From Thermococcus barossii (GTDB taxonomy: Archaea > Methanobacteriota_B > Thermococci > Thermococcales > Thermococcaceae): a stretch of 64,000 nt of DNA. Location of the stretch: contig NZ_CP015101.1 of NCBI RefSeq assembly GCF_002214465.1, positions 1,247,013-1,311,012 on the forward strand, given 5' to 3'. Both the position numbers and the translations under genes were made by a program. Shown here one piece after another: positions 8,383-25,001 of the stretch; position 1 is the stretch's first letter, and each line of letters begins with the position of its first letter. The notes beneath the pieces are model-generated. The model searched no databases and was not told the DNA's origin. It saw nothing but the letters and a program-made list of their open reading frames with translations.

Positions 8383-9225
8383 ATGAAATGCCTTCTCGCC
8401 GGACACCTCGTCATCGACAGGATTATAAAGGGTTCGAGGTTCGAAACGAGGATCGGCGGAGGGGTCTACTATTCCGCGATAACCCTCGCGAATTTCTGTG
8501 ACGTTGAGGTTCTGACCAGCGTCGGGGAAGATTTCCCCGGCGAGTGGCTCGATGAGCTAGCCGACCTGGGAATAAGGCTAAAGTTACTCCCCTCAGAGAA
8601 TAGCACCTCCTACGAGCTTCGCTACCTGGACGCCAACAGGAGGGAGCTCAGGCTTCTCTCAAGGGCAGCCCCTATAAGGGACGTTCCCAGCGGGAGCTAT
8701 GACATGGTGATGCTGAACCCGGTTGCGGGAGAGATTTCCCCCGAAGATGCATCCCGGTTCAAGAGGCTCTCGGACTACATCATCGCCGATGTTCAGGGTT
8801 TTGTAAGGGTTCCCGAGACAGGTCCTGTAAGGTTTAAGAATATCAACGCGTCATTTCTCAGGGGGATTAGCGTTCTCCATGCCGACCTAAAGGAAACACG
8901 CCATCTGAGGAACTTTAATCCCGGAGACGTGGAGGTTTTCCTGGTCACCAACGGGGCGCAGCCGGGTTTTGCGTACCTCAGGGGGAAAAGATATACGTAC
9001 AGACCGGTGGAGGTTGACGTCGAGGAGTCCACGGGTGCTGGAGACGTTTTTCTCGCGAGTTTTGCCCATTTCTACTCCCAATGCCCTTTCATCCAGGCTC
9101 TGAAGAGGGCAAGCGCGTTCACAGCCCTCTTTTTAGAACACAGGGACTTTTCATTCTCGATGGAGGATGTGGACAAACTGGCAATGAAGGTTCAAGTGGA
9201 GAGGCTTAATGATATAAATCCATAG
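8383..9225 (+). CDS. PfkB-family kinase, probable myo-inositol 3-kinase
   Basis: 280-residue ribokinase-fold enzyme: N-terminal RIGGGVYYSAITLANF, and the signature ESTGAGDVFLASF (residues ~224-236) with the catalytic Asp and anion hole. Family membership is clear. The specific call is inference: the position next to Gar1/TFB is that of T. kodakarensis TK2285, characterised as a myo-inositol 3-kinase (from memory). Its product, D-myo-inositol 3-phosphate, is the same compound as L-myo-inositol 1-phosphate, the MIPS product used by the IPCT/DIPPS encoded in this window. The TATA is near 8336-8345. Alternatives: another sugar or nucleoside kinase of the family. Confidence 0.75.
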   Translation: MKCLLAGHLVIDRIIKGSRFETRIGGGVYYSAITLANFCDVEVLTSVGEDFPGEWLDELADLGIRLKLLPSENSTSYELRYLDANRRELRLLSRAAPIRDVPSGSYDMVMLNPVAGEISPEDASRFKRLSDYIIADVQGFVRVPETGPVRFKNINASFLRGISVLHADLKETRHLRNFNPGDVEVFLVTNGAQPGFAYLRGKRYTYRPVEVDVEESTGAGDVFLASFAHFYSQCPFIQALKRASAFTALFLEHRDFSFSMEDVDKLAMKVQVERLNDINP

Positions 9226-11633: not shown

Positions 11634-12395
11634 CTAAAGGGCATCCTTAAGCGCCCGCACTATTCCTGCAACCTCGTCCTGGCTCTCGGTGAGCTTGAGA
11701 AAAACGTCCTCCAGGCTCTCCTCGTGGGCAAACTCCTTGAGCTGTTCAACCGTGCCCTCGGCGATTATCTCGCCGTTGTATATGACGCCAACCCTGTCGC
11801 ATATCGTCTCCGCCAGCGCAAGAACGTGAGTGGAGAAGACAATGCTCTTGCCCTCCTCCCTGAACTGGAGGAGGAGCTCCCTGAGGATGCGGGCACTCTT
11901 GGGGTCGAGGCCGTTCATCGCCTCGTCGAGGATGAGAACCCCCGGATCGTGGAGCATTCCAGCTATGAGGGAAACCTTCTGCTTCGTTCCAAAGCTCAGC
12001 GAACCTATCATCTCGCCGAGGTACTTTTCTATCCCAAATGCCCTCACGAATGTTTCAACGCGCTCCTGGAGTTCTTCCTTCGGAATCTCCCTAACGCTCC
12101 CCACGAAGTTGAAGAACTCGACCGGTGTGAGGCTCTCGTAGAGAACCGGCGTTTCCGGAACGTAGCCGGTTATCCTTCTGACCCCAACGGGATTCTCGCC
12201 CACGTCGATGCCCCCAACGACGACGCGTCCGGAGGTAGGCTGCAGTATGCCCGCCAGAATCTTCATCGTCGTACTCTTCCCGCTCCCGTTCGGGCCGAGG
12301 AGGCCGTAAATCTCGCCGTCAGCAACCGTGAAGGTTATTCCTTTAACGGCTATCGTCGAGCCGAAGCTCTTGGTGAGGTTCTCAACCTCGATCAT
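11634..12395 (-). CDS. ABC exporter ATP-binding protein
   Basis: 253 residues: Walker A GPNGSGKSTT (~34-43), Q-loop near GYVPETPVLYESL, signature LSFGTKQKVSLIAGML, Walker B GVLILDEAMNGLDP, and H-loop FSTHVLALAE. The signature is LSFGTKQ rather than the common LSGGQ, as in several ABC-2 exporter subunits. Partner of the permease at 10161-11624. The upstream minus-strand TATA AAAGTTTATTAGG near 12427-12440 and GGTGGTAGA before the ATG mark the start of this two-gene operon. Confidence 0.9.
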   Translation of the reverse strand: MIEVENLTKSFGSTIAVKGITFTVADGEIYGLLGPNGSGKSTTMKILAGILQPTSGRVVVGGIDVGENPVGVRRITGYVPETPVLYESLTPVEFFNFVGSVREIPKEELQERVETFVRAFGIEKYLGEMIGSLSFGTKQKVSLIAGMLHDPGVLILDEAMNGLDPKSARILRELLLQFREEGKSIVFSTHVLALAETICDRVGVIYNGEIIAEGTVEQLKEFAHEESLEDVFLKLTESQDEVAGIVRALKDAL

Positions 12396-12601
12396 TCTAC
12401 CACCGGGTGTGATAATGAGCGACGCCTAATAAACTTTTGGCTTTTCTCAGTCATCCCCAATGACAGAGGAGATGTATCCTTAAATGACTCCCTGGGAAAG
12501 AAACTCTTAAATAAAATGAGACCAATATTAAACAAAATCCAAACCTCTGTATGGGCCTCAATTTCTTTTCTTGCCCCGGGTTTGGGTTTGGAGGTGCGTG
12601 T

Positions 12602-15181
12602 ATGAAAAGAACCTCAAGGATATTGGTTCTTGTTTTACTGAGCGCGTTAGTCATCATTGGAGGGTGCATTGGAAACACCCCTTCACCCACAGGGACCGGT
12701 TCCCAAACCGGCGAGAACACCCAGGAAGGAGGGATAAGTGAGAGCTCAACAACAGAGACCCAGGGAACGACCGAGACGGTGACCGAGACCGTAACCCAGA
12801 CGGAAACCCAAACTCAAACGGAGACCGGGACATCAACGGAAACCCAAACCCCTGCCAACGAAAGCCTCCAGTTCGACGAGGACGGCAACGTCATCTGCGA
12901 TGAGAACTCTGACCCTGACCTCGGCTGTGAGGCAGGTGAGAGGAACGAAAACGGGACGGGCATTGGTTTCCCGATCCTCAGCATCAACTTAACGCCAGCG
13001 ATAATCCCTGTTTACAGGCTGAGCCTCAACCTGACCTACGCCGGCCCGCTGACGGGCATGGCGAGCGAGCCCAACGGCGAGATAGTGGAGTGGGTCTCAA
13101 TACTGACCTCGTCCCGCGAGCCGGGGAAGAACGTTGCCTTCACGATAAAGTTCGAGAGCGAGGGGCTGGCCAAAACGTACATCCACATGAAGGAGCTGCG
13201 GGACCTCCAGGGAAGGGTGATAGCGTCCTACAAGCCTACAATCCTGAAGTTCGACACCGGTGAGGAGTTCGGAGGGAGGTGGGAGCTCCACCTCTACCTG
13301 GGAAGCTTCACACTCTACAACGTTACCGGAGGCGGCCTCGCCGAGGTCCAAAAGGGGAGCGTCGAGCTAGATGGCTCCATCGTGAGGTTCACCGTCGAGA
13401 ACTTCTCGGAGATATTCCCCGACACCGTCTTCATGCGCATAGAGGGCAACCCAGAGGACCCGAAGACCAGTCCGAGATTCAGCTACCCTGAGACAGGGAA
13501 GTTCATCATAAAAGCAAACCTGGGGAGGATTGACTACTACGCCCCGGCCTACTACGGCGACGCCAAGAGCGGCGTAGCTTTGTACGCCGAGGTTCTCGGC
13601 GATGACGTGAAGTTCAGGCTCCAGTTCAAGGACGAGGAAACGTACGAGGACTTCATACCCGGCGACATGTTCATAGACAGCACCGACAACGGCGAGTTCG
13701 ACTGGTACGCGGAGATAGGGTCGAGCCACTTTCAGCTCAAGGACAGCTCCGGGAGCGTTTACCGCGAGGGGGACGTCATCCGCGGGGAAACGCAACTCGG
13801 CCCCTACGTGGAGTTCACGGTCGAGAACCTCTTCTCCATAATCCCGTGGAGAGAGTTCCGGTTCTGGTTCTCCAGGCCGCTACTGAAGACGCGCTTCCCT
13901 GCCGAGGGGAACCTATGGTTCAACGCCACCAGTGGGCTGAGCATAGAGGAGGACGTTGATAGGTACATCGTTGTTGTGGTCGAGGACGTCTACATCAAGG
14001 GCAACAAGGACGAGGCCGAGGGGGAGATAAGCCTCGTCTCGTGGGCCTACGCCACGAACTACTACGAGAACCTCAATAAAATCGAGTACAGCCCCATCTA
14101 CGTCTTCGGCTATCCGCTCAGGCTCTGGATCGAGGCAGAAGACCACAGCAGGCTCCTGTACCACGACAGGAACGCGGCAAGGCCGGACTGGCCCTTCACA
14201 AACGGCTACCCTGTCCTGGCGATGCCCCTCGACGAAGCTAAGAAGTACCAGAAGATATTCGTTAAGACGACCGGCTGGGACAACGACGACCTCGGAACGT
14301 ACGTCAAGCTCGGCGCCGGCTTCCTCCTCGATGCCGCGATAGGCCTCGCGACGGGCGAGATATCGAGCCTCGTCGAGCACGGCTACACTGGCGTGATGCT
14401 CCTCCACCAGCTAGAGACCGGCGAGAGCGCCAGCTACTTCTGGGGCGAGGCTTTAGCGAACCTCTTCGGCGCACCGCCGGACAGGGTGGGCTACGATACG
14501 ATATCCTTCGACCCGATGCGGGACTACAGCGACGGCTACCTCGTCAGGTCGGTCTCGAAGGACGGCAACATGGTGGTCACCTACATCATCTACGAGGTCG
14601 ACCTTCCAAGGGCGGCGCGCTACGCGAGGCTCGAACTGTCAGCCGATGGATTGCTCTTCACGAAGGACACCGAGTGGGGCGACGACGAGTACTACGCCTT
14701 CTTCAGGGCCTCCACCGGTTTCACTCCTGGAAATGCCGAGATCGATGACGCCCTCATAGGGGAGATCACGACGATGGTTCCAGAGGGGGTGGCCTACGCC
14801 TATCCAAAGCTCGACAGGAGCAGCGGAACGGTGGGCTTCTCGGTGGGGGACTTCTCCGACGGCAAGCTCGACCACGGGGTCATAAACGGGAACACCGTCA
14901 AGATAATCCCCTTCGGGCTCACCCTGGTCAATTTGAGCAGCATAAGGACGCCCTTCGTCTACGTCGAGTACGACGGCTGGGAGGAGGATTCCGGTAACTG
15001 GGGCAACGACGACGACCCGATGGGGACGTTCGGCATAACGCTCCTCCTCGACGGCGGGAACTTCCACTGGGACCCGTTCTCGGGAATTCCGAGAAGATCC
15101 TGGGGAGGGAAGGACTTCGACGTCTGCGGCGTCTCAGGCGGCTGTTCCACGGTGTACATGAGCGCCTACATAGGGCCCTGA
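12602..15181 (+). CDS. Large secreted lipoprotein, no recognised domain
   Basis: 859 residues from ATG 12602, preceded by GGAGGTGCGTGT; 17 upstream codons of the frame are not a signal. A lipoprotein signal (MKRTSRILVLVLLSALVI, lipobox region IIGGC at ~C21) is followed by a ~65-residue Thr/Ser/Glu-rich tether with repeated T-E-T-Q units. A short acidic Cys-containing segment (CDENSDPDLGCEAGERNENG) comes next, then a long aromatic and acidic region that looks beta-rich. Two further cysteines are near the end (DVCGVSGGCST). I recognise no enzyme motif. Surface-anchored by inference, and divergent from the ABC-2 exporter. TATA ACTCTTAAATAAAA near 12506-12519. Confidence 0.8.
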   Translation: MKRTSRILVLVLLSALVIIGGCIGNTPSPTGTGSQTGENTQEGGISESSTTETQGTTETVTETVTQTETQTQTETGTSTETQTPANESLQFDEDGNVICDENSDPDLGCEAGERNENGTGIGFPILSINLTPAIIPVYRLSLNLTYAGPLTGMASEPNGEIVEWVSILTSSREPGKNVAFTIKFESEGLAKTYIHMKELRDLQGRVIASYKPTILKFDTGEEFGGRWELHLYLGSFTLYNVTGGGLAEVQKGSVELDGSIVRFTVENFSEIFPDTVFMRIEGNPEDPKTSPRFSYPETGKFIIKANLGRIDYYAPAYYGDAKSGVALYAEVLGDDVKFRLQFKDEETYEDFIPGDMFIDSTDNGEFDWYAEIGSSHFQLKDSSGSVYREGDVIRGETQLGPYVEFTVENLFSIIPWREFRFWFSRPLLKTRFPAEGNLWFNATSGLSIEEDVDRYIVVVVEDVYIKGNKDEAEGEISLVSWAYATNYYENLNKIEYSPIYVFGYPLRLWIEAEDHSRLLYHDRNAARPDWPFTNGYPVLAMPLDEAKKYQKIFVKTTGWDNDDLGTYVKLGAGFLLDAAIGLATGEISSLVEHGYTGVMLLHQLETGESASYFWGEALANLFGAPPDRVGYDTISFDPMRDYSDGYLVRSVSKDGNMVVTYIIYEVDLPRAARYARLELSADGLLFTKDTEWGDDEYYAFFRASTGFTPGNAEIDDALIGEITTMVPEGVAYAYPKLDRSSGTVGFSVGDFSDGKLDHGVINGNTVKIIPFGLTLVNLSSIRTPFVYVEYDGWEEDSGNWGNDDDPMGTFGITLLLDGGNFHWDPFSGIPRRSWGGKDFDVCGVSGGCSTVYMSAYIGP

Positions 15182-15186
15182 GGCCC

Positions 15187-15864
15187 TCAACCTTTTCTTT
15201 CAAGGTGTGCCCTCTTCACCTCAAGAACCCCGGAATACTCCCACTCGTTCCACCTCTTCTCGACCTCGTCGAAAACTATCCTCGCCCTGAAGAACGGTGC
15301 ATCCCTGACGAAGGTCTCGAACTCGCCGCCCTCGCCAGCGACGTGGATTTTATACCTCTCGTGGAGCTTTACCAGCTCACCTAAGGCCTTCTCGTCTATC
15401 CTCCGTCCGAGCCAGCTCTCGTCCAGGCCGTATGCTGAAACCCCGACCATCACGATGTCGAAAATCCCCACCAGCTCGCGCATATAATCTATTGGATCGC
15501 GGTGCCAGGCCGGGGCGAAGCTCTCAAGCCCGAGCTCCTCCGCCACCCTATCAACGCGCTTCTTCTGGTACTCACTCGCCAGAGCTCCGGCAACGACACC
15601 CTCAATCTTCAGCCCTTCGAGGACGGCCTTCATGTCCTCGACTTCCCTCTCCTTCTCGCCGCTTGTGAATCCCTTGACGAGGGGGATCCCTATGGCTTTA
15701 GCTTGGAGCTCGGTGAGGTGTATGTTCGGCACGTGGTACATGTAGCTGTCATCGCGCTCGCTGACCATCGAGACGAGGTATTTCACCTCAAAGCCCTGCC
15801 TCAGCGCCCAGTAGAGGGCGTAGTTGGAATCTTTACCGCCCGAATAGAGCACCGCGACGCGCAT
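15187..15864 (-). CDS. dph6: Diphthine--ammonia ligase (Dph6)
   Basis: 225-residue ATP pyrophosphatase (adenine nucleotide alpha-hydrolase fold) with the PP-loop [12 protein letters not shown] at residues ~6-17 and the family C-terminal block [17 protein letters not shown]. It amidates diphthine on elongation factor 2, the last step of diphthamide synthesis. The frame extends upstream by 22 codons, but ATG 15864 follows GGTGGTGAAA and gives the family N-terminus. Converges with the lipoprotein gene (five-base gap) and diverges from IPCT/DIPPS. Confidence 0.92.
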
Positions 15865-15957
15865 TTTCACCACCGAAAGCTTTAAATCACCTGTGGTTAA
15901 TTTAATCTCGGTTCTCTTAATGGATGCCACATCGAGGGGCTTAAAAAGGTGATGTCA

Positions 15958-17241
15958 ATGGCTCCAGGGACGGCGGTGATTCTAGCGGCTGGCCTCGGCA
16001 CGAGGATTGGGGGCAGGCCCAAAGGGCTCCTGAAGGTCGCCGGAAGGGAGATTCTCTATCGAACGATGGTACTGCTCCAGAAAAACGGCATCAAACGCTT
16101 TGTAATCGTAACCAACGAGCGCTACGCCCCCCTCTACAGGGAGTTCATTGAAAGGCACGGCTTCAACGCGGAGCTCGTCATCAATCCCGAGCCCGAGAAG
16201 GGCAACGGACACTCGCTCCACCTGGCCAGAAACCGCGTCTCCGGGAGGTTTGTTCTGGTCATGAGCGACCACGTTTATGGTGAAGCATTCATCGAGCGCG
16301 CTGTAAAGGGAGACGGCCTGATAGCGGACAGGAAACCGGGGTGGATTAACGTTGAAGAGGCCACAAAGGTCAAAATCAGGGACGGCAGGGTCGAGCGAAT
16401 CGGAAAGGGGCTGAGAGAGTGGGACGCGGTTGACACGGGCTTTTTTGTCCTCGACGAGGGCATCTTTGAGGTGACAGCCCGGCTTGAAGAAGAGCGGGAC
16501 GGTGACTACCCGCTGAGTGAGGTCGTTGAGCGGGCTGGGCTTAGGGTGACTTTCGTTGACGGTCTAGGCTGGACCGACGTTGACACGCCGGAGGAGCTGA
16601 AGAGAGCCAGAAAGATGCTCGTCTTCACCGCTGTTAAGGGAACCGGCGACGGCTTCATCAGCAGGCACATCAACAGGAAGATTTCGACGAGGGTCAGCTA
16701 CCTCCTCGCCGAGAAGGTCACTCCGAACCAAATGACAGCCCTTACATTCACCCTTGGAATCCTTTCGGCCTTTCTAACGCTCGTTAACCTCCCGCTGGCC
16801 GGGATACTCTACCAGCTTAGCTCTATCCTCGACGGAGTTGACGGCGAGCTGGCCAGGGCACAGCTGAGGACGAGCAGGTTCGGCGGCTATATAGACTCCC
16901 TCCTCGACCGCTACGTTGACGGGGCGTTCCTCGCGCTAATGGCATACACTACCCTGAGGGAACCCCTCTGGTACCTCGTTGCCCTCCTCGCCCTCCTCGG
17001 CTCGGTCATGGTCAGCTACTCGACCGAGAGGTTCAGGGCCGCCTACGGCGAGGACGCCTACCGCGCGATTCCAGCGTTGAGAAAACTGCCGGGGAAGAGG
17101 GACGAGAGAATATTCCTGACGATGCTGTTTCTCCTGCACCCGTCCGGGGCTTCGGTTAAAGCGCTCCTTCTCCTGCTGGCCCTTTTGACAAACCTGAGGG
17201 TTATCCTGACGGCGTGGCTTGTGGGAAGGAAGAAAAGCTGA
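15958..17241 (+). CDS. Bifunctional CTP:inositol-1-phosphate cytidylyltransferase / di-myo-inositol phosphate phosphate synthase
   Basis: 427 residues in two fused parts. The N-terminal nucleotidyltransferase (~1-225) has LAAGLGTRIGGRPKGLL and makes CDP-inositol from inositol 1-phosphate. The C-terminal membrane CDP-alcohol phosphotransferase has D-G-V-D-G-E-L-A-R-A, eight bases of spacer residues, then GGYIDSLLDRYVD, the complete DG..DG..AR..G..D..D motif, plus several membrane helices. It joins CDP-inositol and inositol 1-phosphate into phospho-DIP. ATG 15958 after GGTGATGTCA is preferred to GTG 15949. The matching MIPS gene lies 4.8 kb downstream, beyond an ABC importer on the other strand. 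Confidence 0.93.
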   Translation: MAPGTAVILAAGLGTRIGGRPKGLLKVAGREILYRTMVLLQKNGIKRFVIVTNERYAPLYREFIERHGFNAELVINPEPEKGNGHSLHLARNRVSGRFVLVMSDHVYGEAFIERAVKGDGLIADRKPGWINVEEATKVKIRDGRVERIGKGLREWDAVDTGFFVLDEGIFEVTARLEEERDGDYPLSEVVERAGLRVTFVDGLGWTDVDTPEELKRARKMLVFTAVKGTGDGFISRHINRKISTRVSYLLAEKVTPNQMTALTFTLGILSAFLTLVNLPLAGILYQLSSILDGVDGELARAQLRTSRFGGYIDSLLDRYVDGAFLALMAYTTLREPLWYLVALLALLGSVMVSYSTERFRAAYGEDAYRAIPALRKLPGKRDERIFLTMLFLLHPSGASVKALLLLLALLTNLRVILTAWLVGRKKS

Positions 17242-17243
17242 GC

Positions 17244-18329
17244 TCAATCCCCAAGGAACTCAAGGGCTTTCTCGCTCTTTTTGTCGAAGAGGACTATCCT
17301 GTCCTCCCGGAGTTTCACCGTCACCGGCTCGCCGAAGCTGAAGTGCTCCCCCTCGGGAGCAAAGACCTTGACAAACGCACCGTTGACCGAGACGGTTACT
17401 ATCTGCTCCCTGCCGAGAGGCTCAAAGGAGTAAACCGTTCCAGCCAGTCCCTCGGCCTTTCCTTTGACGACCTCCGCGTCGTGCGGCCTGAAGCCAAGGA
17501 TCACCTCAGTGACACCCAGCCTCTCTACCGTCTCCCTGTACTGGGCCGGAACCGGAATCACACTCCCGTAAACGTTGAGGTAAGGGCCCTCGATTTCCGC
17601 CTCCACAAAGTTCATGGGCGGACTTCCGAGGAAGCCGCCGACGAACCGGTACTTCGGCCTGTAATAGACGTCGTCGGGAGTCCCGACCTGCAGTATTACT
17701 CCCTCTTTTATCACCGCTATCCTGTCGGCCATTGCCAGGGCCTCCGCCTGATCGTGGGTGACGTAAACGGCCGTGATACCAAGCTCTTTCTGGAGCCTCT
17801 TGAGCTCGGCCCTGACCTCAAGCCTCAGGAGAGCGTCGAGGTTGCTGAGGGGCTCGTCGAGGAGCAACACATCGGGTTCCTTGACCAGCGCCCTCGCTAT
17901 GGCCACACGCTGCTGCTGACCGCCGCTCAGCTGCCACGGATAGCGGTCGAGGAGGTTCTCTATCCTGAGCATCTCGGCCACTTCCCTGACTTTTCTGGCT
18001 ATTTCGTCCTTTGGTGCCTTTCTCAGCTCAAGGGGAAAGGCTATGTTGTCGAAGACCTTCATATGGGGATAGAGCGCCCAGTTCTGAAAAACCAGGCCAA
18101 CGTTCCTGTCCTTCGGCGGGACATCGGTAACGTCCCTGCCGTCGAAATAAATCCGACCGCTCGTCGGCCTGTAGATTCCGGCTATCGTGTAGAGGAGCGT
18201 TGACTTCCCGCTTCCGGAGGGACCAAGGAGGGCCATGAACTCCTTATCGGATATCTCCAGGCTCACCCGTTTGAGGGCCTCAAAGTCGCCGAACCTCTTT
18301 GTGATGCTGTCGAGGGTAACCCTAACCAT
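17244..18329 (-). CDS. CUT1 sugar-type ABC importer ATPase (MalK/UgpC family)
   Basis: 361 residues: Walker A GPSGSGKSTL, Q-loop LVFQNWALYPHMKVFDN, signature LSGGQQQRVAIARAL, Walker B LLLDEPLSNLDA and H-loop VTHDQAEALAMADR. A C-terminal regulatory OB/TOBE region follows from ~240. This is the shared-ATPase type used with MalF/MalG-like permeases. ATG 18329, preceded by GAGGTGGTTGGA, is chosen over GTG 18338, which lies inside that ribosome binding site. Last gene of the four-gene operon; it stops two bases from the convergent IPCT/DIPPS stop. Confidence 0.9.
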   Translation of the reverse strand: MVRVTLDSITKRFGDFEALKRVSLEISDKEFMALLGPSGSGKSTLLYTIAGIYRPTSGRIYFDGRDVTDVPPKDRNVGLVFQNWALYPHMKVFDNIAFPLELRKAPKDEIARKVREVAEMLRIENLLDRYPWQLSGGQQQRVAIARALVKEPDVLLLDEPLSNLDALLRLEVRAELKRLQKELGITAVYVTHDQAEALAMADRIAVIKEGVILQVGTPDDVYYRPKYRFVGGFLGSPPMNFVEAEIEGPYLNVYGSVIPVPAQYRETVERLGVTEVILGFRPHDAEVVKGKAEGLAGTVYSFEPLGREQIVTVSVNGAFVKVFAPEGEHFSFGEPVTVKLREDRIVLFDKKSEKALEFLGD

Positions 18330-18339
18330 TCCAACCACC

Positions 18340-19209
18340 TCACCCCTTTATTCCACCCGAGTAGCCCTGGAGGAGGAGCTGCTGGGCGGTGATGAAGAAT
18401 ATTATCGTGGGAAGGAGATAGAACGTTCCGGCGGCGGCTATGAGGGGCATGTGGGAGTACTCGGCCTCTATGTTGGCCTCTATGAAGGTTGCGAGCGTGG
18501 GATAAACCAGGAAGGTTCTTACGTAGATTATGTCCTGCCAGCCGGCCAGGAATGCGAAGAGAGCAACGGCCAGTATTCCGGGCTTTATCAGCGGAAGCAT
18601 TATCTTCCTCCAGACCGTTATCCGGGAGGCCCCGTCTATGATGCCGGACCATTCAAACTCCCATGGTATCGTGTCAAAGAAGCCCTTCATGAGCCAGATT
18701 GACATGGGTATCTCAAGTGCCGCCCGGGCGAGTATGACGTATGCGAAGGAGTAGAGTCCGACGACCTCGTAGTTCTGGGGGAAAGTAAGGCGGTAGAGGA
18801 GGTAGACGCCGACTATCAGGGCAACGCCTGGAAAGGCATGAAGGACAAGGAGGAGAACCATCATGGTCTTTCTTCCGCGGAAGTCTATCCTTGAGAGGGA
18901 GTATCCGGCGAGGGCACTTACCCCGGTTACCACCCCGGCGACGCCGAGAGCCACTACGAGCGTGTTAAGGGTTATGCGCCATATGTTGACCCTTATTCCA
19001 CCTGTGGTGGCTATTTTTCCCTGGAAGAGGTTTATCCAGTTCTCAAGCGTTGGATGGAATGAGCCGGGATCGAGGTTGGTAACCATCTCCGTGCTGAAGC
19101 TCGAAAGAACGAGAAGGAAAAAGCCCAGAATGAGCGGGAGGCTCGCGAGGAGGAGGGCGAGGACTATGAGCCGCTCGTACCTCTTGGGTCTCGTTTCCAC
19201 GTCCCTCAT
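18340..19209 (-). CDS. ABC importer permease, MalG-like
   Basis: 289 residues, six predicted membrane helices, with the EAA-loop IIDGASRITVWRKIMLPLIKPG that contacts the ATPase. The first residue of the usual EAA triplet is divergent (FEWSGIIDGA). CUT1 family inner permease that pairs with the gene at 19209-20147, whose stop overlaps this start by one base. The ATPase gene follows 10 bases downstream. The substrate is not determined by this subunit. Confidence 0.88.
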   Translation of the reverse strand: MRDVETRPKRYERLIVLALLLASLPLILGFFLLVLSSFSTEMVTNLDPGSFHPTLENWINLFQGKIATTGGIRVNIWRITLNTLVVALGVAGVVTGVSALAGYSLSRIDFRGRKTMMVLLLVLHAFPGVALIVGVYLLYRLTFPQNYEVVGLYSFAYVILARAALEIPMSIWLMKGFFDTIPWEFEWSGIIDGASRITVWRKIMLPLIKPGILAVALFAFLAGWQDIIYVRTFLVYPTLATFIEANIEAEYSHMPLIAAAGTFYLLPTIIFFITAQQLLLQGYSGGIKG

Positions 19210-20147
19210 CAGAAGTCCCCCCGGGGCCTTTTCATCATCCTCTCAAACTTGAGAACCTTCAGCGTCACGAAGCCGCCGAGGATTCCGATTATGGAGAGTA
19301 TGACCGCAGCGGCAGCGGCCAGTCCCTGATCCTGCTCTCCCCTGCCGAAGGCCGTGTTGAATACGTAGAGTGCCAGTGTAGTGCCGTAGTCCCTGTTGAC
19401 GAGGTCCCACTGGACGAGCAGGAAGAGGTGCGGGTATGTGGTCAGCAGACTGAGGAACTGCCACGTCAGGACGTAGAGGAGGTGCCACTTTATCATTGGA
19501 ATCAGAATCCTCCTCGATATCTGCCATGATGACGCACCATCAACCCTTGCGGCTATGACGAGTTCCCTGGGTATCTGATTCAAAGCCGAGGTGAAGACTA
19601 TCATTCCAAAGCTCACACCCACCAAACCGTTGACGAAGATTATCACGCTCCACGCTCCCCAAGGGGTTACCTGCCCCCAGGGAATCGGCTCGGAAATCGC
19701 ACCCAGACTCATAAGGATGGAGTTCAGCGTTCCAATCTCACTCCCGTGGAAGAAGTAATACCAGACGAGGCTGTAAACCGCTATCGGCGACATCCTCGGG
19801 AGGAGCCAGAGGAGTCTGTACGAAGATGCGGGCCTCTCGTTGATGAAAAATGTCGCGAGGGCCAGTGCAAGGCCGCCAAATACGTTTATCATGAGGGTTA
19901 TGCCAACAAAGACGAGGGTTGTCAGAATCACGGCTTTAAACGTCGGGTCGTGCTGGAACATGTAAAAAAGCCGCTCGTAGTTGTAGAAGCCGACAAACTC
20001 GGTAAGATACCTGTCAACGTTCCAGTTCCTCATCCTGGTCATGCTTATGTAAACCGTCATGATTAGGGGCACCAAATAGAACAGGAACACCATGAGCACC
20101 ATGGGGGAAAGGAAAAAGGAAAGATCCCTGAGCTTTCCCCGTGCCAT
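19209..20147 (-). CDS. ABC importer permease, MalF-like
   Basis: 312 residues with a first membrane helix directly after MARGKLRDLSFFLSP and five more downstream. The EAA loop is ELVIAARVDGASSWQISRRILIPM. A short MalF-type permease without the extra large periplasmic domain of enteric MalF. It begins nine bases after the binding-protein stop and is followed with a one-base overlap by the MalG-like gene, so the transporter is one transcript. Confidence 0.88.
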   Translation of the reverse strand: MARGKLRDLSFFLSPMVLMVFLFYLVPLIMTVYISMTRMRNWNVDRYLTEFVGFYNYERLFYMFQHDPTFKAVILTTLVFVGITLMINVFGGLALALATFFINERPASSYRLLWLLPRMSPIAVYSLVWYYFFHGSEIGTLNSILMSLGAISEPIPWGQVTPWGAWSVIIFVNGLVGVSFGMIVFTSALNQIPRELVIAARVDGASSWQISRRILIPMIKWHLLYVLTWQFLSLLTTYPHLFLLVQWDLVNRDYGTTLALYVFNTAFGRGEQDQGLAAAAAVILSIIGILGGFVTLKVLKFERMMKRPRGDF

Positions 20148-20156
20148 GACATCACC

Positions 20157-21791
20157 TCATCCCTGCGGGAACTTCCAGTCCTTGGGTATTTCGCCCTGTA
20201 TCTCAACGTTCTGAGCAAGCTCCGGGTCCGCCTTAACCTTCTGGATGATGTAGTTGACCGCCTCCTCAGGGGTCATCTCGCCCCTCAGAACCTTGTCAAC
20301 CGCCTCCTTGAAGATGTCGGCAAGGGCTGGATACTTCGGGTGGGCAGGAGCGAGGTGGGTGTATTCGAGCATGTAGCTGACGTCGGCAAGGAACTGGGCG
20401 TTTATCGGGTTGACGGTGGCCTGGACTATGTCCCTGATGTTGTTCTTAACATCGTCGCTCAGGTCGAGGTTGAGTGCCTTGAGGTCGCTGAGCCACTTCT
20501 CATCTTTGATCAGCTTTGCTGCCTCCTTTCTAACCGGCAGGTGGGCTGAGATGACGCTGTGTATGGCGTTTATGTCCGGGTCGCTGGCCTTGATCAGCAT
20601 CAGAAAGGCCAGCTTGTGGTAGACATCCTTCAGCTCATCGTACTTCGGGTTCAGCTGGCCGGCCTTGGAGTTTATCATCCAGACGAACGGCTGGCTGAGG
20701 GTTACCGGCTTGTCACCCTTCTCACCCGCCGGGAAGAGCGTGTAGTAGAACCACTCCTTCACTTCCTCCGGCTTCAGGCCCCTCGGAGTTCCGTCCTTGG
20801 CGTAGTACTGCTTGGTCTGCCACTCCGTCCAGTACCATGTTCCGCCTATGTCAAAGAGCGTCCTGCCCTCGACTATAGCCGGGTGTATCTGCTTGGCCCA
20901 GTCCCAGCTCATTATGTCTTCCGGAAGGAGGCCATCGCGGGCGAACTTCCACTCAACGTAGAGCCACTTGTAAACGGCCGGAACGTCAACTACGAGCTTT
21001 CCGGTGTTCGGGTCGTAGAGCCTGCCCCCGAAGGCGAAGATGAACTGTATCAGATCCGGATGGGCTGAACCCTTTCTGTGGATAAGACCCCACTCTGCGG
21101 CCCCCTCGTCCTTGGCCTTCTTGGCCCAGTAGTAGACGTCGCTCCACGTGAACTCCCCGTTCTTCACCTTCTCATCGAGGCCGTTGAGCTCGAATCCGAT
21201 CTTTTGGGCCACGTCCCTCCTTATGTAGAGCGGTCTCGCCTCGGTGTCCTGCGGGAGGCCGTAGAGCCTTCCGTTGAACTTGGAGGCCTCGATGAGGGAC
21301 GGATAGAAGTCATCAACAACGCCCTGATAGGCTTTGGCGTAGTCCGTTATGTCGAGTATGTAACCCTCGTCTGCCAGCGTCGGCAGGAAGGCGTAGCTGT
21401 TCACGAAGAAGTCCCCAGCCTGTCCAAGGGGCTGCTTGCTGAGGTACTCCTTGTAAGCATCCTGGAAGGAGGCAACGTAGTGAGTCTCGGTTATAACGAT
21501 CTTAACATTGATCCCGTTGTCGGCCCAGATTTTGTTTATTCTCCTCGCGGCCTCCACTATTCCGTAAACCCTCATGACGCTGTTCGGATCGCCCGAACCC
21601 CACGCAGAGAACTTGACCTCATTAACACCGTTCTGCTCCAGAACCTTTCCTATTTCCACAAGATCCTTTGTGAGGTCCCCGGTAAGCTGAACCTCGGTCT
21701 GAGAAGTCTTTGCCTCTTCACCGCCTATGCAGCCGCTGGCAATTACTCCGAAAATTACCAGTGCAACCAGCCACAGTGCCGCGGCCCTCAT
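20157..21791 (-). CDS. ABC importer solute-binding lipoprotein (CUT1 family), substrate unknown
   Basis: 544 residues from ATG 21791 (GGAGGG eight bases upstream; the GTG at 21800 falls in the binding site itself). Lipoprotein signal MRAAALWLVALVIFGVIASGC, then a family 1 extracellular binding fold with many exposed Trp/Tyr (WYWTEWQTKQYY), typical of sugar or polyol ligands. At 544 residues it is about 100 longer than the usual Thermococcales maltose/trehalose-binding proteins. The operon lies between the two DIP biosynthesis genes, so an inositol-related ligand is possible (inference). First gene of the operon 21791-17244. Confidence 0.88.
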   Translation of the reverse strand: MRAAALWLVALVIFGVIASGCIGGEEAKTSQTEVQLTGDLTKDLVEIGKVLEQNGVNEVKFSAWGSGDPNSVMRVYGIVEAARRINKIWADNGINVKIVITETHYVASFQDAYKEYLSKQPLGQAGDFFVNSYAFLPTLADEGYILDITDYAKAYQGVVDDFYPSLIEASKFNGRLYGLPQDTEARPLYIRRDVAQKIGFELNGLDEKVKNGEFTWSDVYYWAKKAKDEGAAEWGLIHRKGSAHPDLIQFIFAFGGRLYDPNTGKLVVDVPAVYKWLYVEWKFARDGLLPEDIMSWDWAKQIHPAIVEGRTLFDIGGTWYWTEWQTKQYYAKDGTPRGLKPEEVKEWFYYTLFPAGEKGDKPVTLSQPFVWMINSKAGQLNPKYDELKDVYHKLAFLMLIKASDPDINAIHSVISAHLPVRKEAAKLIKDEKWLSDLKALNLDLSDDVKNNIRDIVQATVNPINAQFLADVSYMLEYTHLAPAHPKYPALADIFKEAVDKVLRGEMTPEEAVNYIIQKVKADPELAQNVEIQGEIPKDWKFPQG

Positions 21792-21888
21792 GGCTACCAC
21801 CCTCCAAAGTTTTCAAAAGCGAGCCTCAAAGGGCCCGGAGGGCTTATTTTAGAAAGCGAGCTGATTCCACATTTTATTCAGATTTTGT

Positions 21889-21899
21889 ATTTATAAAAT
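21889..21899 (-). promoter_or_regulatory. Promoter of the embedded ABC importer operon
   Basis: Minus-strand ATTTTATAAAT; the predicted start is near 21868, leaving a long ~77-base leader before the binding-protein ATG. No TATCAC-N5-GTGATA (TGM) sugar-regulon site is seen, which argues against ordinary maltodextrin-type control. Confidence 0.6.
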
Positions 21900-21988
21900 T
21901 TTTGGCAGGGGCCTCCTCGGCTCAGCATTCGGAGCAAATAAGCACAGGGGGTATTCAAAAATCCGTAAAATCGTTTTCCCACCAAAAA

Positions 21989-22015
21989 CTATTTAACCAC
22001 TGTAAAATATCTTAC
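21989..22015 (+). promoter_or_regulatory. MIPS promoter with inverted repeat near start site
   Basis: TATA CTATTTAACC (21989-21998) predicts a start near 22020. Between them, 22002-22015 reads GTAA, AATATC, TTAC, an inverted repeat that shares TCTTACA with the Phr operator at 3812-3835. MIPS belongs to the Phr regulon in T. kodakarensis as I remember it, so this may be a Phr half-site. Confidence 0.5.
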
Positions 22016-22037
22016 ACTAACAAAGGAGGTGGAGAAA

Positions 22038-23186
22038 ATGGTTAAGGTTGTCATACTCGGACAGGGTTATGTCGCCAGCATATTCGCGAGCGGGCTTGAG
22101 AAGATAAAGGCCGGAAAGATGAAACCCTACGGCGTTCCCCTCGCCGATGAGCTCCCGATTAAAATCAAGGACATTGAGATAGTCGGTTCTTACGACGTCG
22201 ACGCCTCCAAGGTCGGCAGGGATCTCTACGATGTTGTCAAAGCCTACGACCCAGAGGCCCCGGAGAGCCTCAGGGGAATAACCATAAGAAAGGGAATCCA
22301 CCTGAGGAGCCTCAGGAACCTTCCGCTTGAGGCAACCGGCCTTGAGGACGAGATGACCCTCAAGGAGGCAGTCGAGCACCTCGTAAACGAGTGGAAGGAG
22401 CTCAAGGCTGAGGTCTTCATAAACGTCTGCACCACCGAGGCCTTCGTGCCCTTCGAGAGCAGGGAGGAGCTTGAGAAAGCCATCGAGGAGGACAACAGGG
22501 ACAGACTCACGGCAACGCAGGTCTACGCCTACGCGATAGCACAGTACGCCAAGGAGGTCGGCGGCGCTGCCTTCGTCAACGCGATTCCGACGCTTATAGC
22601 CAACGATCCAGCATTCGTCGAGCTCGCCAGGGAGAGCAACATGGTTATATTCGGTGACGATGGTGCTACCGGTGCCACTCCGCTCACTGCCGACATACTC
22701 AGCCACCTCGCCCAGAGGAACCGCTACGTTCTCGACATAGCCCAGTTCAACATCGGCGGAAACAACGACTTCCTGGCATTGACCGACAAGGAGAGAAACA
22801 AGAGCAAGGAGTTCACCAAGAGCTCGGTTGTCAAAGAACTGCTCGGCTACGACGCGCCGCACTACATCAAGCCCACCGGCTTCCTTGAGCCCCTCGGCGA
22901 CAAGAAGTTCATAGCGATGCACATCGAGTACATCAGCTTCAACGGCGCCCGCGATGAGCTCGTCATAACCGGCAGGATAAATGACAGTCCGGCTTTAGCT
23001 GGCCTTCTCGTCGACCTCGCGAGGCTCGGAAAGATAGCGATTGAGAAGAAGGCCTTTGGAACCGTCTACGAGGTTAACGCATTCTACATGAAGAACCCTG
23101 GACCGAAGGACAGGCCCAACATACCGCGCATCATAGCCCACGAGAAGATGAGGATGTGGGCCGGACTGGAGCCGCGCTGGTTCTGA
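22038..23186 (+). CDS. myo-Inositol-1-phosphate synthase (MIPS)
   Basis: 382 residues. Converts glucose 6-phosphate to L-myo-inositol 1-phosphate with NAD+, supplying DIP and inositol phospholipids. The Rossmann start VVILGQGYVASIFASGLEKI, the block VFINVCTTEAF, FNIGGNNDFLALTD and the catalytic region FNGARDELVITGRINDSPALAG are conserved. ATG 22038 follows AAAGGAGGTGGAGAAA; a GTG at 22029 is within that site. Divergent from the ABC importer. Locus numbers recalled for T. kodakarensis (TK2278 and TK2279) place it directly next to IPCT/DIPPS, unlike here. Confidence 0.95.
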   Translation: MVKVVILGQGYVASIFASGLEKIKAGKMKPYGVPLADELPIKIKDIEIVGSYDVDASKVGRDLYDVVKAYDPEAPESLRGITIRKGIHLRSLRNLPLEATGLEDEMTLKEAVEHLVNEWKELKAEVFINVCTTEAFVPFESREELEKAIEEDNRDRLTATQVYAYAIAQYAKEVGGAAFVNAIPTLIANDPAFVELARESNMVIFGDDGATGATPLTADILSHLAQRNRYVLDIAQFNIGGNNDFLALTDKERNKSKEFTKSSVVKELLGYDAPHYIKPTGFLEPLGDKKFIAMHIEYISFNGARDELVITGRINDSPALAGLLVDLARLGKIAIEKKAFGTVYEVNAFYMKNPGPKDRPNIPRIIAHEKMRMWAGLEPRWF

Positions 23187-23240
23187 CCTTTTCCAACAAA
23201 CTTTTAATCCCCTTACCCTATTTTTCTCGGAGGGAAGCCG

Positions 23241-23843
23241 ATGAGCTGGAAGAGGGGAGCCTATCCTGAGTTCACTCTTGAGGATGCCGTTGCGGTTCTT
23301 TTCATGCTTCAGAACCCGACGGGAAGAAAGGCTATATCAGAGGTTCTTGACCTCGGCGAAGGGAGTGTTAGGACGCTTTTGAAGAAACTTGCCGCCCTCG
23401 ATGTCATAAGCTCCACCCAGCGCGGGCACTCTCTCAACGAGAGCGGAATGAAGCTCCTTGAAAGGCTCTCAAAGCACTTCTCAGAGGTTCATAAGGTTGG
23501 AGAGGTCGATGGTTACCCCGCCTACGCCATTCTCGTAAAAAGCCCGCCCGAATTCAAGAGCATTGAGCTCAGGGATGAAGCCATAAGGTTCTTTGCAAAG
23601 GGAGCAATGATACTCGTTGTGAAGAACGGAGAGCCCGTCTTCCCCGAGGACGAAAGGCCGCTGAGCGAGACGATGCCCGGGCTTGCGGGGGAAATTAAAG
23701 GGGCGTTCAATCTGGAGGATAATGACCTCGTAGTGGTAACGTGGGCAGAGAAGGAAGCCGACGCCATGAAGAGCGCATATCACGTCGCGCTCACCCTGAA
23801 AGAGGGAGAACTGCCGGAGGAGATAAGGTTCCTTGTGAGGTGA
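23241..23843 (+). CDS. DUF4443 winged-helix protein
   Basis: 200 residues. N-terminal winged helix (residues ~12-75; TLEDAVAVLFMLQ, EGSVRTLLKKLAALDVI, GHSLNESGMKLLERL) joined to a C-terminal DUF4443 domain of unknown function (from ~85: YPAYAILVKSPPEFKSIELRDEAIRFFAKGA in pieces). Probably a regulator, ligand unknown. The start follows GGAGGGAAGCCG, and AACTTTTAATCC near 23199-23210 is the likely TATA. The stop is five bases before pyrF, so it may head the pyrF-PUA-ribL run. Confidence 0.82.
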   Translation: MSWKRGAYPEFTLEDAVAVLFMLQNPTGRKAISEVLDLGEGSVRTLLKKLAALDVISSTQRGHSLNESGMKLLERLSKHFSEVHKVGEVDGYPAYAILVKSPPEFKSIELRDEAIRFFAKGAMILVVKNGEPVFPEDERPLSETMPGLAGEIKGAFNLEDNDLVVVTWAEKEADAMKSAYHVALTLKEGELPEEIRFLVR

Positions 23844-23847
23844 AGCC

Positions 23848-24480
23848 ATGAAGAGACTCATACTTGCCCTTGACGTCTACGAACGTGAGAGGGCCCTGGA
23901 GATAGCGGAATGCACGGCCGATTACCTGTGGGCTGTGAAGGTGAACTGGCCGCTGATAATAGGCTCGGGTTTGGGCATCATCACCGAACTCAGGCAGGTG
24001 ACCGGACTGCCGGTAATAGCAGATCTTAAGCTGGCCGATATTCCGAACACCAACAGGCTCATAGCGAAGAGGGTTTTTGATGCCGGGGCCGACTACATCA
24101 TAGCCCACGGCTTCGTCGGAAGGGACAGCGTCAATGCCATCATGGAGCTTGGGGAGACGATAATCGTCGTCGAGATGAGCCACCCGGGTGCAGAGGAATT
24201 TATCCAACCGGCGACGGATAAGCTGATCGAACTCACCAACGAGCTTGAGCCCTTCGGCGTTATAGCGCCGGCCACGAGGCCGGAGCGCGTTGCATACATA
24301 CGCTCGAAGCTGAAACCCGGAATCAAAATACTCACCCCCGGTGTTGGAGCCCAGGGGGGCAGGGGGGATGAGGTTTTAAAGGCCGGTGCCGATTACGTCA
24401 TCGTGGGCCGCTCTATCTATGCGAGTGAGAATCCAAGGGAAGCCGCGAGAAATCTTCACCAAGAGATAGCGGGGGTGTGA
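23848..24480 (+). CDS. pyrF: Orotidine 5'-phosphate decarboxylase
   Basis: 210-residue TIM-barrel enzyme for the last step of UMP synthesis. Substrate and catalytic residues are visible: LALDVYE, VKVNWPLI, the DLKLADIPNTN catalytic tetrad block, and the phosphate-binding GRSIYASENPREAA. Normal archaeal length. Five bases from the DUF4443 stop, GAGGTGAAGCC as ribosome binding site. The stop overlaps the upstream edge of the PUA gene. In T. kodakarensis this is the marker gene TK2276, a few genes from MIPS as here. Confidence 0.96.
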   Translation: MKRLILALDVYERERALEIAECTADYLWAVKVNWPLIIGSGLGIITELRQVTGLPVIADLKLADIPNTNRLIAKRVFDAGADYIIAHGFVGRDSVNAIMELGETIIVVEMSHPGAEEFIQPATDKLIELTNELEPFGVIAPATRPERVAYIRSKLKPGIKILTPGVGAQGGRGDEVLKAGADYVIVGRSIYASENPREAARNLHQEIAGV

Positions 24481-24482
24481 AG

Positions 24483-25001
24483 ATGGAGCTTAAGGTCAAG
24501 CACCCGCTCAGCAAGAAGGAAGTGAAGGAGATAATAAGGGAGATGAGTGAGATATTCGGCGAGGAGATAGCGGGGAAGATGCTGAGCAAGAAGGACCGCG
24601 TCGAGGTGGCGGAGTTCGATAAGACAACCGAGATACTCCTCGTGAACGGGAAGCCGTTCTTCATACGGAGGAAGGGCCTCATCTTCCCGCTGGTAATCGC
24701 CCTCTACGAGCTATCCAACGAGGAAGACCTGAGGAAGTGGCCGAGAAGGGTGGTGGTCGATGCCGGTGCGGTGCCCTTCATAATAAAGGGCGCCGACGTC
24801 ATGGCCGCCGGGATAACCGATGCCGATGAGGGCATAAGGGAGGGCGACTTCGTCTTCGTGGTTGAGGAGGACTACGGAAGGCCCCTTGCCATAGGCATAG
24901 CACTCATGGACGGAAAGGCGATGAAGGAGAAACCCAAGGGGAAAGCGGTTAAGAACATACACCACGCAAAGGACAGGATCTGGGAACTGACGGTGGGCTG
25001 A
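24483..25001 (+). CDS. PUA-domain RNA-binding protein (MCT-1/Tma20-like)
   Basis: 172 residues. N-terminal DUF1947/pre-PUA region ([38 protein letters not shown]) followed by a PUA domain from ~90 ([41 protein letters not shown]). Eukaryotic relatives MCT-1/Tma20 act in translation re-initiation and ribosome recycling; the archaeal role is inferred. ATG 24483 is preferred over GTG 24477 because the GGGGGTG run stands at the right distance. Two bases downstream of pyrF. Confidence 0.85.

Follow-up and report, generated by a model that had tools for sequence, protein, structure and literature searches.

Among the solutes with which hyperthermophiles meet heat stress, di-myo-inositol phosphate (DIP) is a major one, and it is usually regarded as a de novo product from glucose 6-phosphate. 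Here, we analyse a 64,000-nt stretch of the 1.92-Mb genome of Thermococcus barossii (NZ_CP015101.1; we term this whole stretch the window, and coordinates are positions within it), in which two plus-strand genes of DIP synthesis, encoding a bifunctional inositol-1-phosphate cytidylyltransferase/CDP-inositol inositolphosphotransferase (IPCT/DIPPS) and myo-inositol-3-phosphate synthase (MIPS), enclose a four-gene ABC importer of the CUT1 (MalEFGK-type) group on the minus strand (17244-21791). In sequence, its closest characterised relative is InoEFGK, the inositol importer of Thermotoga. We propose that the T. barossii importer represents an archaeal branch of the InoE type, distinguished by a long solute-binding protein (SBP), and that its ligand probably belongs to the inositol class, being either inositol or an inositol phosphodiester; we put the probability of this reading at roughly two in three.

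Gene content and promoters of the locus

An earlier description made from the letters of the DNA (the sequence-only reading) had IPCT/DIPPS and MIPS separated by a complete opposite-strand importer with a 544-aa binding lipoprotein. All of these genes are present where it placed them, the SBP combines an SBP_bac_1 match with a lipobox, and the separation is real, as the two enclosing genes lie ~65 bp apart in importer-free members of the same genus. The Pfam matches of all four importer genes exceed their cut-offs and, together with the fold modelled for the SBP, place the importer in the CUT1 group. Across the genome, MIPS alone matches PF01658.

Table 1 Genes and promoter elements at and around the importer locus in the T. 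barossii window
Feature	Position	Strand	Basis
PfkB kinase, orthologue of T. kodakarensis myo-inositol 3-kinase (MI3K)	8383-9225	+	phmmer, 327 bits to 3w4s/4xf7
Dph6-type diphthine-ammonia ligase, flanks the conserved site on its left	15187-15930	-	TIGR03679, 291 bits (cut-off 197)
IPCT/DIPPS	15958-17241	+	NF041135 (NCBIfam), 680 bits (cut-off 580)
Importer ATPase, MalK/UgpC type	17244-18338	-	ABC_tran, OB_MalK, TOBE_2; 51% to T. maritima TM0421/InoK
Importer permease 2, MalG type	18340-19209	-	PF00528 (BPD_transp_1); 42% to T. maritima TM0420
Importer permease 1, MalF type	19209-20147	-	PF00528 (BPD_transp_1); 37% to T. maritima TM0419
Solute-binding lipoprotein (SBP), long branch of InoE type, 544 aa	20157-21791	-	SBP_bac_1; lipobox SGCIGG
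Importer promoter core CCAAAAATTTTATAAATA (as minus-strand reading)	21888-21905	-	kept in 12/13 aligned intergenic regions
MIPS promoter core ACCAAAAACTATTTAA	21981-21996	+	kept in 13 importer genomes and in importer-free genomes
MIPS	22038-23186	+	PF01658 (above cut-off) and PF07994

The MIPS promoter, CCRAAAACTATTTAA, is found both with and without the importer, and therefore the importer has broken no operon. Among the 13 aligned importer-MIPS intergenic regions, conservation is confined to the two core promoters and a portion of the SBP leader; because the middle of the region is not conserved, a common importer/MIPS operator cannot be claimed. The IPCT-MIPS interval contains no TGM-like site, in agreement with the sequence-only reading, and matches to the TGM sugar-regulon site with at most three mismatches are fewer in the window than expected by chance. 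The closest TGM-like palindrome (TACCACCGGGTGTGATA, 12398-12414, one mismatch) lies upstream of an ABC exporter ATPase gene (11634-12395). A pattern for the Phr heat-shock operator gave two one-mismatch matches in the window, which is chance level, and none in the interval.

Relationship to the Thermotoga importer InoEFGK

A search of the Thermotogales revealed the SBP family at two levels, with Pseudothermotoga proteins sharing 62-66% and Thermotoga proteins 32-36% identity with the window SBP. In T. maritima, the family member is encoded three genes past an exact match to TM0415, inside the TM0411-TM0422 inositol cluster (a ROK regulator, an alcohol dehydrogenase, a creatininase-type protein, a Gfo/Idh protein, a kinase, a TIM barrel, the SBP, the permeases, the ATPase and a second TIM barrel), and by this position is InoE (TM0418). 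Secondary sources list InoEFGK as the T. maritima inositol transporter (PMC3750489) and equate InoK with TM0421 (PMC2246101).

InoE aligns with the window SBP at 181 bits, compared with at most 70 bits for the best other CUT1 binders drawn from Thermococcaceae and Thermotogales genomes. IQ-TREE joins the window branch with InoE and a crenarchaeal group in a single clade (support 100/98), apart from those other binders. The run flags long branches, and its outgroups come from the same kinds of genome; given the long-branch warning, we count the gap in bit scores as separate support. The window and InoE branches also share invariant or nearly invariant residues (R74, Q181, T183-P187, H238-R239, W298, H303, W321, E323, W324 and H411). 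All of these but Q181 are invariant throughout the clade, and at most of these positions other CUT1 binders have a different residue or a gap. Thus, the CUT1 inositol importer of Thermotoga, which the sequence-only reading had offered as a precedent for the transporter class, is the closest characterised relative of the window importer.

An AlphaFold2 model of the SBP (38 homologues; mean pLDDT 92.8, pTM 0.88) has the CUT1 binding-protein fold. Foldseek searches with this model returned generic CUT1 binders only (trehalose/maltose, dinucleotide, sulfoquinovosyl glycerol and others, at 14-20% identity) and indicated no ligand. The fold and its generic sugar-binder matches would fit an ordinary sugar or oligosaccharide importer that stands at the MIPS site by descent alone and is unrelated to inositol. 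We regard such an importer as unlikely, as the closest characterised relative of the window importer is InoE, with a common signature that ordinary CUT1 binders do not have.

Conserved adjacency to MIPS in Thermococcaceae

Across 94 Thermococcaceae genomes, 42 encode an orthologous SBP (at least 75% identity). Three carriers, with contig ends or no MIPS, were not counted for MIPS adjacency; among the 39 full-length copies with testable context, the importer adjoins MIPS in 30. All 30 are divergent from MIPS and start 162-401 bp away, as does a 137-residue SBP remnant in one further genome (L090:9874-10287), where the other importer genes are gone; this is importer loss in progress.

Three genus-level groups keep the importer next to MIPS. 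The order is dph6-IPCT-importer-MIPS in the genus of the window (g1) and in g5, and dph6-importer-MIPS in g4, where IPCT/DIPPS is located elsewhere; the importer therefore stays with MIPS when IPCT leaves. The dph6 gene adjoins the importer or IPCT in all three groups. The sequence-only reading would have been refuted by an importer placed beside unrelated carbohydrate genes in most relatives, and the comparison did not find this. No glycosidase or sugar-catabolic gene adjoins the importer in Thermococcaceae, which, like the missing TGM site, speaks against an ordinary sugar importer. Such an importer would be easier to reconcile with the Pyrococcus copies, which adjoin an aminotransferase (PH0207 in P. 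horikoshii) and no inositol genes, and with the possibility that one insertion is the ancestor of all MIPS-adjacent copies.

Two side observations concern this site. The genes lip12551, IPCT, dph6, DUF4443 and pyrF, within positions 12000-25000 of the window, are closest to those of one importer-free genome (G016) and mostly also to those of another (G039), lip12551 being 95-96% identical to these two versus ~50% in other genomes; the window MI3K, cetZ and importer are closest to those of three others (G030, G042 and G070). This pattern suggests mosaic ancestry of the region from homologous exchange across the importer site. Separately, a contig labelled Methanothermococcus okinawensis (DQVW01000083.1) carries MIPS, the importer and IPCT of Thermococcales type, and is probably a mis-binned Thermococcales contig.

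Neighbourhoods of distant relatives

Outside Thermococcaceae, a crenarchaeal locus on the InoE side of the family (L147:3199-13575) combines an InoE-type importer with a PfkB kinase, an iron-dependent alcohol dehydrogenase and adjoining IolN-like (237 bits, cut-off 245) and IolO-like (225 bits, cut-off 300) genes, and resembles T. maritima TM0411-TM0422. This neighbourhood is an independent inositol link for the importer family. That these two relatives sit in inositol-catabolic clusters would also suit an importer whose inositol goes chiefly into catabolism, as has been proposed for T. maritima, rather than into DIP. We consider this improbable for the window importer: the nearest matches of the T. 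barossii genome to the Thermotoga inositol dehydrogenase are ~32% identical and, at 193 and 142 bits, fall far short of the inositol 2-dehydrogenase cut-off (355 bits), and they belong to a separate cluster with its own CUT1 importer, a mannosylglycerate-synthase-like glycosyltransferase and a glycerate kinase. We therefore rejected this Gfo/Idh pair as inositol catabolism, its scores being far below the dehydrogenase cut-off and its cluster compatible-solute-like, with an importer of its own. The cluster (G000:C1:1226500-1240500, ~12 kb upstream of the window) comprises the glycosyltransferase, the tandem Gfo/Idh genes, the separate CUT1 importer, a TrmB regulator, the glycerate kinase and a PfkB kinase; its relatives add an MGH1-like glycoside hydrolase, and it looks like a system for synthesis and salvage of a glyceryl-glycoside solute. 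Within the genus, it is found together with the window importer (12/14 versus 12/47; for the Gfo/Idh pair, p = 8e-5, relatedness not corrected for).

Other neighbours point towards phosphodiesters. GDPD genes (PF03009, all above cut-off) neighbour the importer at seven loci in Crenarchaeota, arranged in three ways (L056; L057, L140 and L152; L052, L054 and L138), and the chance of three independent cases among ~15 lineages is ~6e-5, a rough value that assumes 1.5 GDPD genes per 1,700 genes. Next after InoEFGK in Thermotoga comes a TIM barrel related to TM0422, which is also a divergent neighbour of the Pseudothermotoga copies; its best NCBIfam match is the phosphodiesterase CbiR, at 53-58 bits and below the cut-off of 105. 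TIM barrels of the TM0422 type at L113:13666-14577 and L119:11207-12058 have CbiR/endonuclease-IV-like sequences. By this similarity, the TM0422-type TIM barrel is possibly a phosphodiesterase for inositol phosphodiesters.

These neighbours favour a narrower form of our proposal, whose probability is contained in that given above: the importer may take up an inositol phosphodiester, glycerophosphoinositol or DIP, as an osmolyte or lipid headgroup, which the cell would either use as it is or split with an intracellular phosphodiesterase. Two further features favour it, namely the best NCBIfam match of the importer ATPase (UgpC, 381 bits, below the cut-off of 432) and the conserved polar residues peculiar to the long-binder branch. 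It is set back, however, by two complete Pyrococcus-group carriers (G006 and G008) without GDPD, by the lack of any phosphodiesterase gene adjoining the importer in Thermococcaceae, by the low CbiR scores of the TIM barrel and by the setting of the Pseudothermotoga TIM barrel, which heads an otherwise murein-recycling-like operon (L-Ala-D/L-Glu epimerase, 610 bits, above 500). We hold this narrower form as a tentative option. As a correlate of the importer within Thermococcaceae, GDPD is uninformative, being nearly universal there.

The DIP genes themselves do not follow the importer outside the Thermococcales. Both Pseudothermotoga carriers lack MIPS and any convincing IPCT/DIPPS; six importer-carrying crenarchaeal metagenome-assembled genomes and the carrier G096 gave no IPCT/DIPPS match, with incompleteness of metagenome-assembled genomes a caveat, and the carrier G097 gave a weak one (24%, in the nucleotidyltransferase region). 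A tie between importer and DIP synthesis is thus not general.

Myo-inositol 3-kinase

The sequence-only reading saw the PfkB kinase of the window in the position of the T. kodakarensis MI3K, and both its score to 3w4s and its inositol pocket mark it as an orthologue. The T. kodakarensis enzyme, which has the ribokinase fold, contacts inositol through D12, G26, Q136, R140 and D219 (PMC5931981). The window kinase keeps all five residues (D12, G26, Q138, R142 and D221) and three further pocket positions, 8/8 of those compared. The same five-residue signature is kept in 20/20 further MI3K-like proteins from the Pyrococcus group, G093 and Crenarchaeota, which argues that MI3K has long accompanied inositol metabolism and is not part of the importer locus.

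Its distribution agrees. MI3K is encoded in 87 of the 94 Thermococcaceae genomes, independently of the importer (Fisher p = 0.45); it lies far from the importer in g3, g4 and g5, and its closeness in the window is a matter of g1 synteny, found in importer-free genomes too. A weak association between importer and MI3K appears in the crenarchaeal class (p = 0.018, relatedness not corrected for). A co-inherited salvage module of kinase and importer is therefore not supported; MI3K is not a specific partner of the importer, and the salvage-module idea is weaker than the assignment of a ligand class. On biochemical grounds, MI3K could feed DIP synthesis.

Proposed ligand and its use

As the nearest studied relative is the Thermotoga inositol importer, the window importer probably takes in inositol or an inositol-containing phosphate compound. 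Phosphodiesterase-type neighbours in distant relatives, together with the branch-specific residues, make free inositol and inositol phosphodiesters both live options. The ligand, the direction of flux and its use for DIP are the parts of the proposal that we infer. The lipoprotein would capture, outside the cell, either myo-inositol or a phosphodiester such as glycerophosphoinositol or DIP, which hyperthermophiles nearby might release; transport into the cell would fall to the permeases and the ATPase. MI3K would then phosphorylate free inositol to D-myo-inositol 3-phosphate, identical to the MIPS product, which would join the inositol-phosphate pool and supply DIP, via IPCT/DIPPS, and archaetidylinositol lipids. 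The sequence-only reading is thus supported in part: InoE kinship and MIPS adjacency support the ligand class, whereas neither a kinase-importer module nor a general link to DIP is retained.

Several observations weigh against an inositol-class ligand. The window binder shares no more than 32-36% identity with InoE and is ~100 residues longer, and the long-binder branch has conserved polar and aromatic residues of its own that differ from InoE, such as D68 and W296-D297; the ligand may therefore have shifted from that of InoE. The importer stands away from MIPS in nine Thermococcaceae carriers (eight Pyrococcus-group genomes and G093), and a single ancestral placement followed by vertical inheritance could also explain MIPS adjacency. 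The Pseudothermotoga copies adjoin murein-recycling genes. PF0119, very likely the P. furiosus orthologue of the binder, an assignment made from its lipobox and 61-kDa mass, was found in the supernatant of a starch-grown culture and called a general sugar binder (PMC3824201), and inositol as the only source of carbon did not support growth of T. maritima (PMC3750489).

The importer family is annotated merely as a maltose or general sugar importer, and a literature search, with most subscription journals outside its coverage, found no ligand assignment and no proposal of inositol or DIP uptake for the archaeal long-binder branch, nor any route of DIP uptake. If our proposal is true, de novo synthesis would be joined by uptake through a dedicated importer of inositol or its phosphodiesters, the archaeal myo-inositol kinase would have an external source of substrate, and a transporter family widespread in hyperthermophilic archaea and Pseudothermotoga would gain a testable ligand class. 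In P. furiosus, heat shock strongly induces MIPS (PMC10746257). More speculatively, and with odds well below even, the long-binder branch may be dedicated to inositol phosphodiesters (DIP and glycerophosphoinositol), so that thermoprotective solutes would be regained by hyperthermophiles or shared among them; this uptake would be paired with phosphodiesterases in some lineages and, in Thermococcus, with inositol-phosphate synthesis de novo.

Comparison with known systems

Orthologues of the T. kodakarensis MI3K, IPCT/DIPPS and MIPS are all encoded in the window. The IPCT-MIPS neighbourhood that the sequence-only reading likened to T. kodakarensis, where the two genes are presumably TK2279 and TK2278, is that of importer-free genus-mates; the window instead has the four-gene importer between them. 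The importers marked by PF0119 in P. furiosus and by PH0207 in P. horikoshii have four orthologous genes, with SBPs ~80% identical to that of the window, and the P. horikoshii ATPase is PDB 2it1 (exact match), its locus adjoining PH0207 (exact match). Unlike the window importer, these copies lie away from MIPS and IPCT.

The importer resembles the Ugp importers of glycerol-3-phosphate and glycerophosphodiesters in the best match of its ATPase and in the GDPD genes beside some crenarchaeal relatives. It falls outside the Ugp type, however, with the UgpC cut-off missed, permease scores of ~35-39 bits to UgpA/UgpE and no neighbouring GDPD in Thermococcaceae. With T. maritima InoEFGK (TM0418-TM0421) it shares the CUT1 architecture, the SBP clade, the PQDTEARP and GGTWxWxEW signatures, and ATPase and permease identities of 51% and 37-42%, respectively. 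In contrast to the 448-aa InoE, the window SBP is an archaeal lipoprotein of 544 aa with extra segments, and the importer adjoins the inositol-anabolic MIPS gene, whereas InoEFGK stands among inositol-catabolic genes, a location that is a feature of context rather than one that defines the sequence family.

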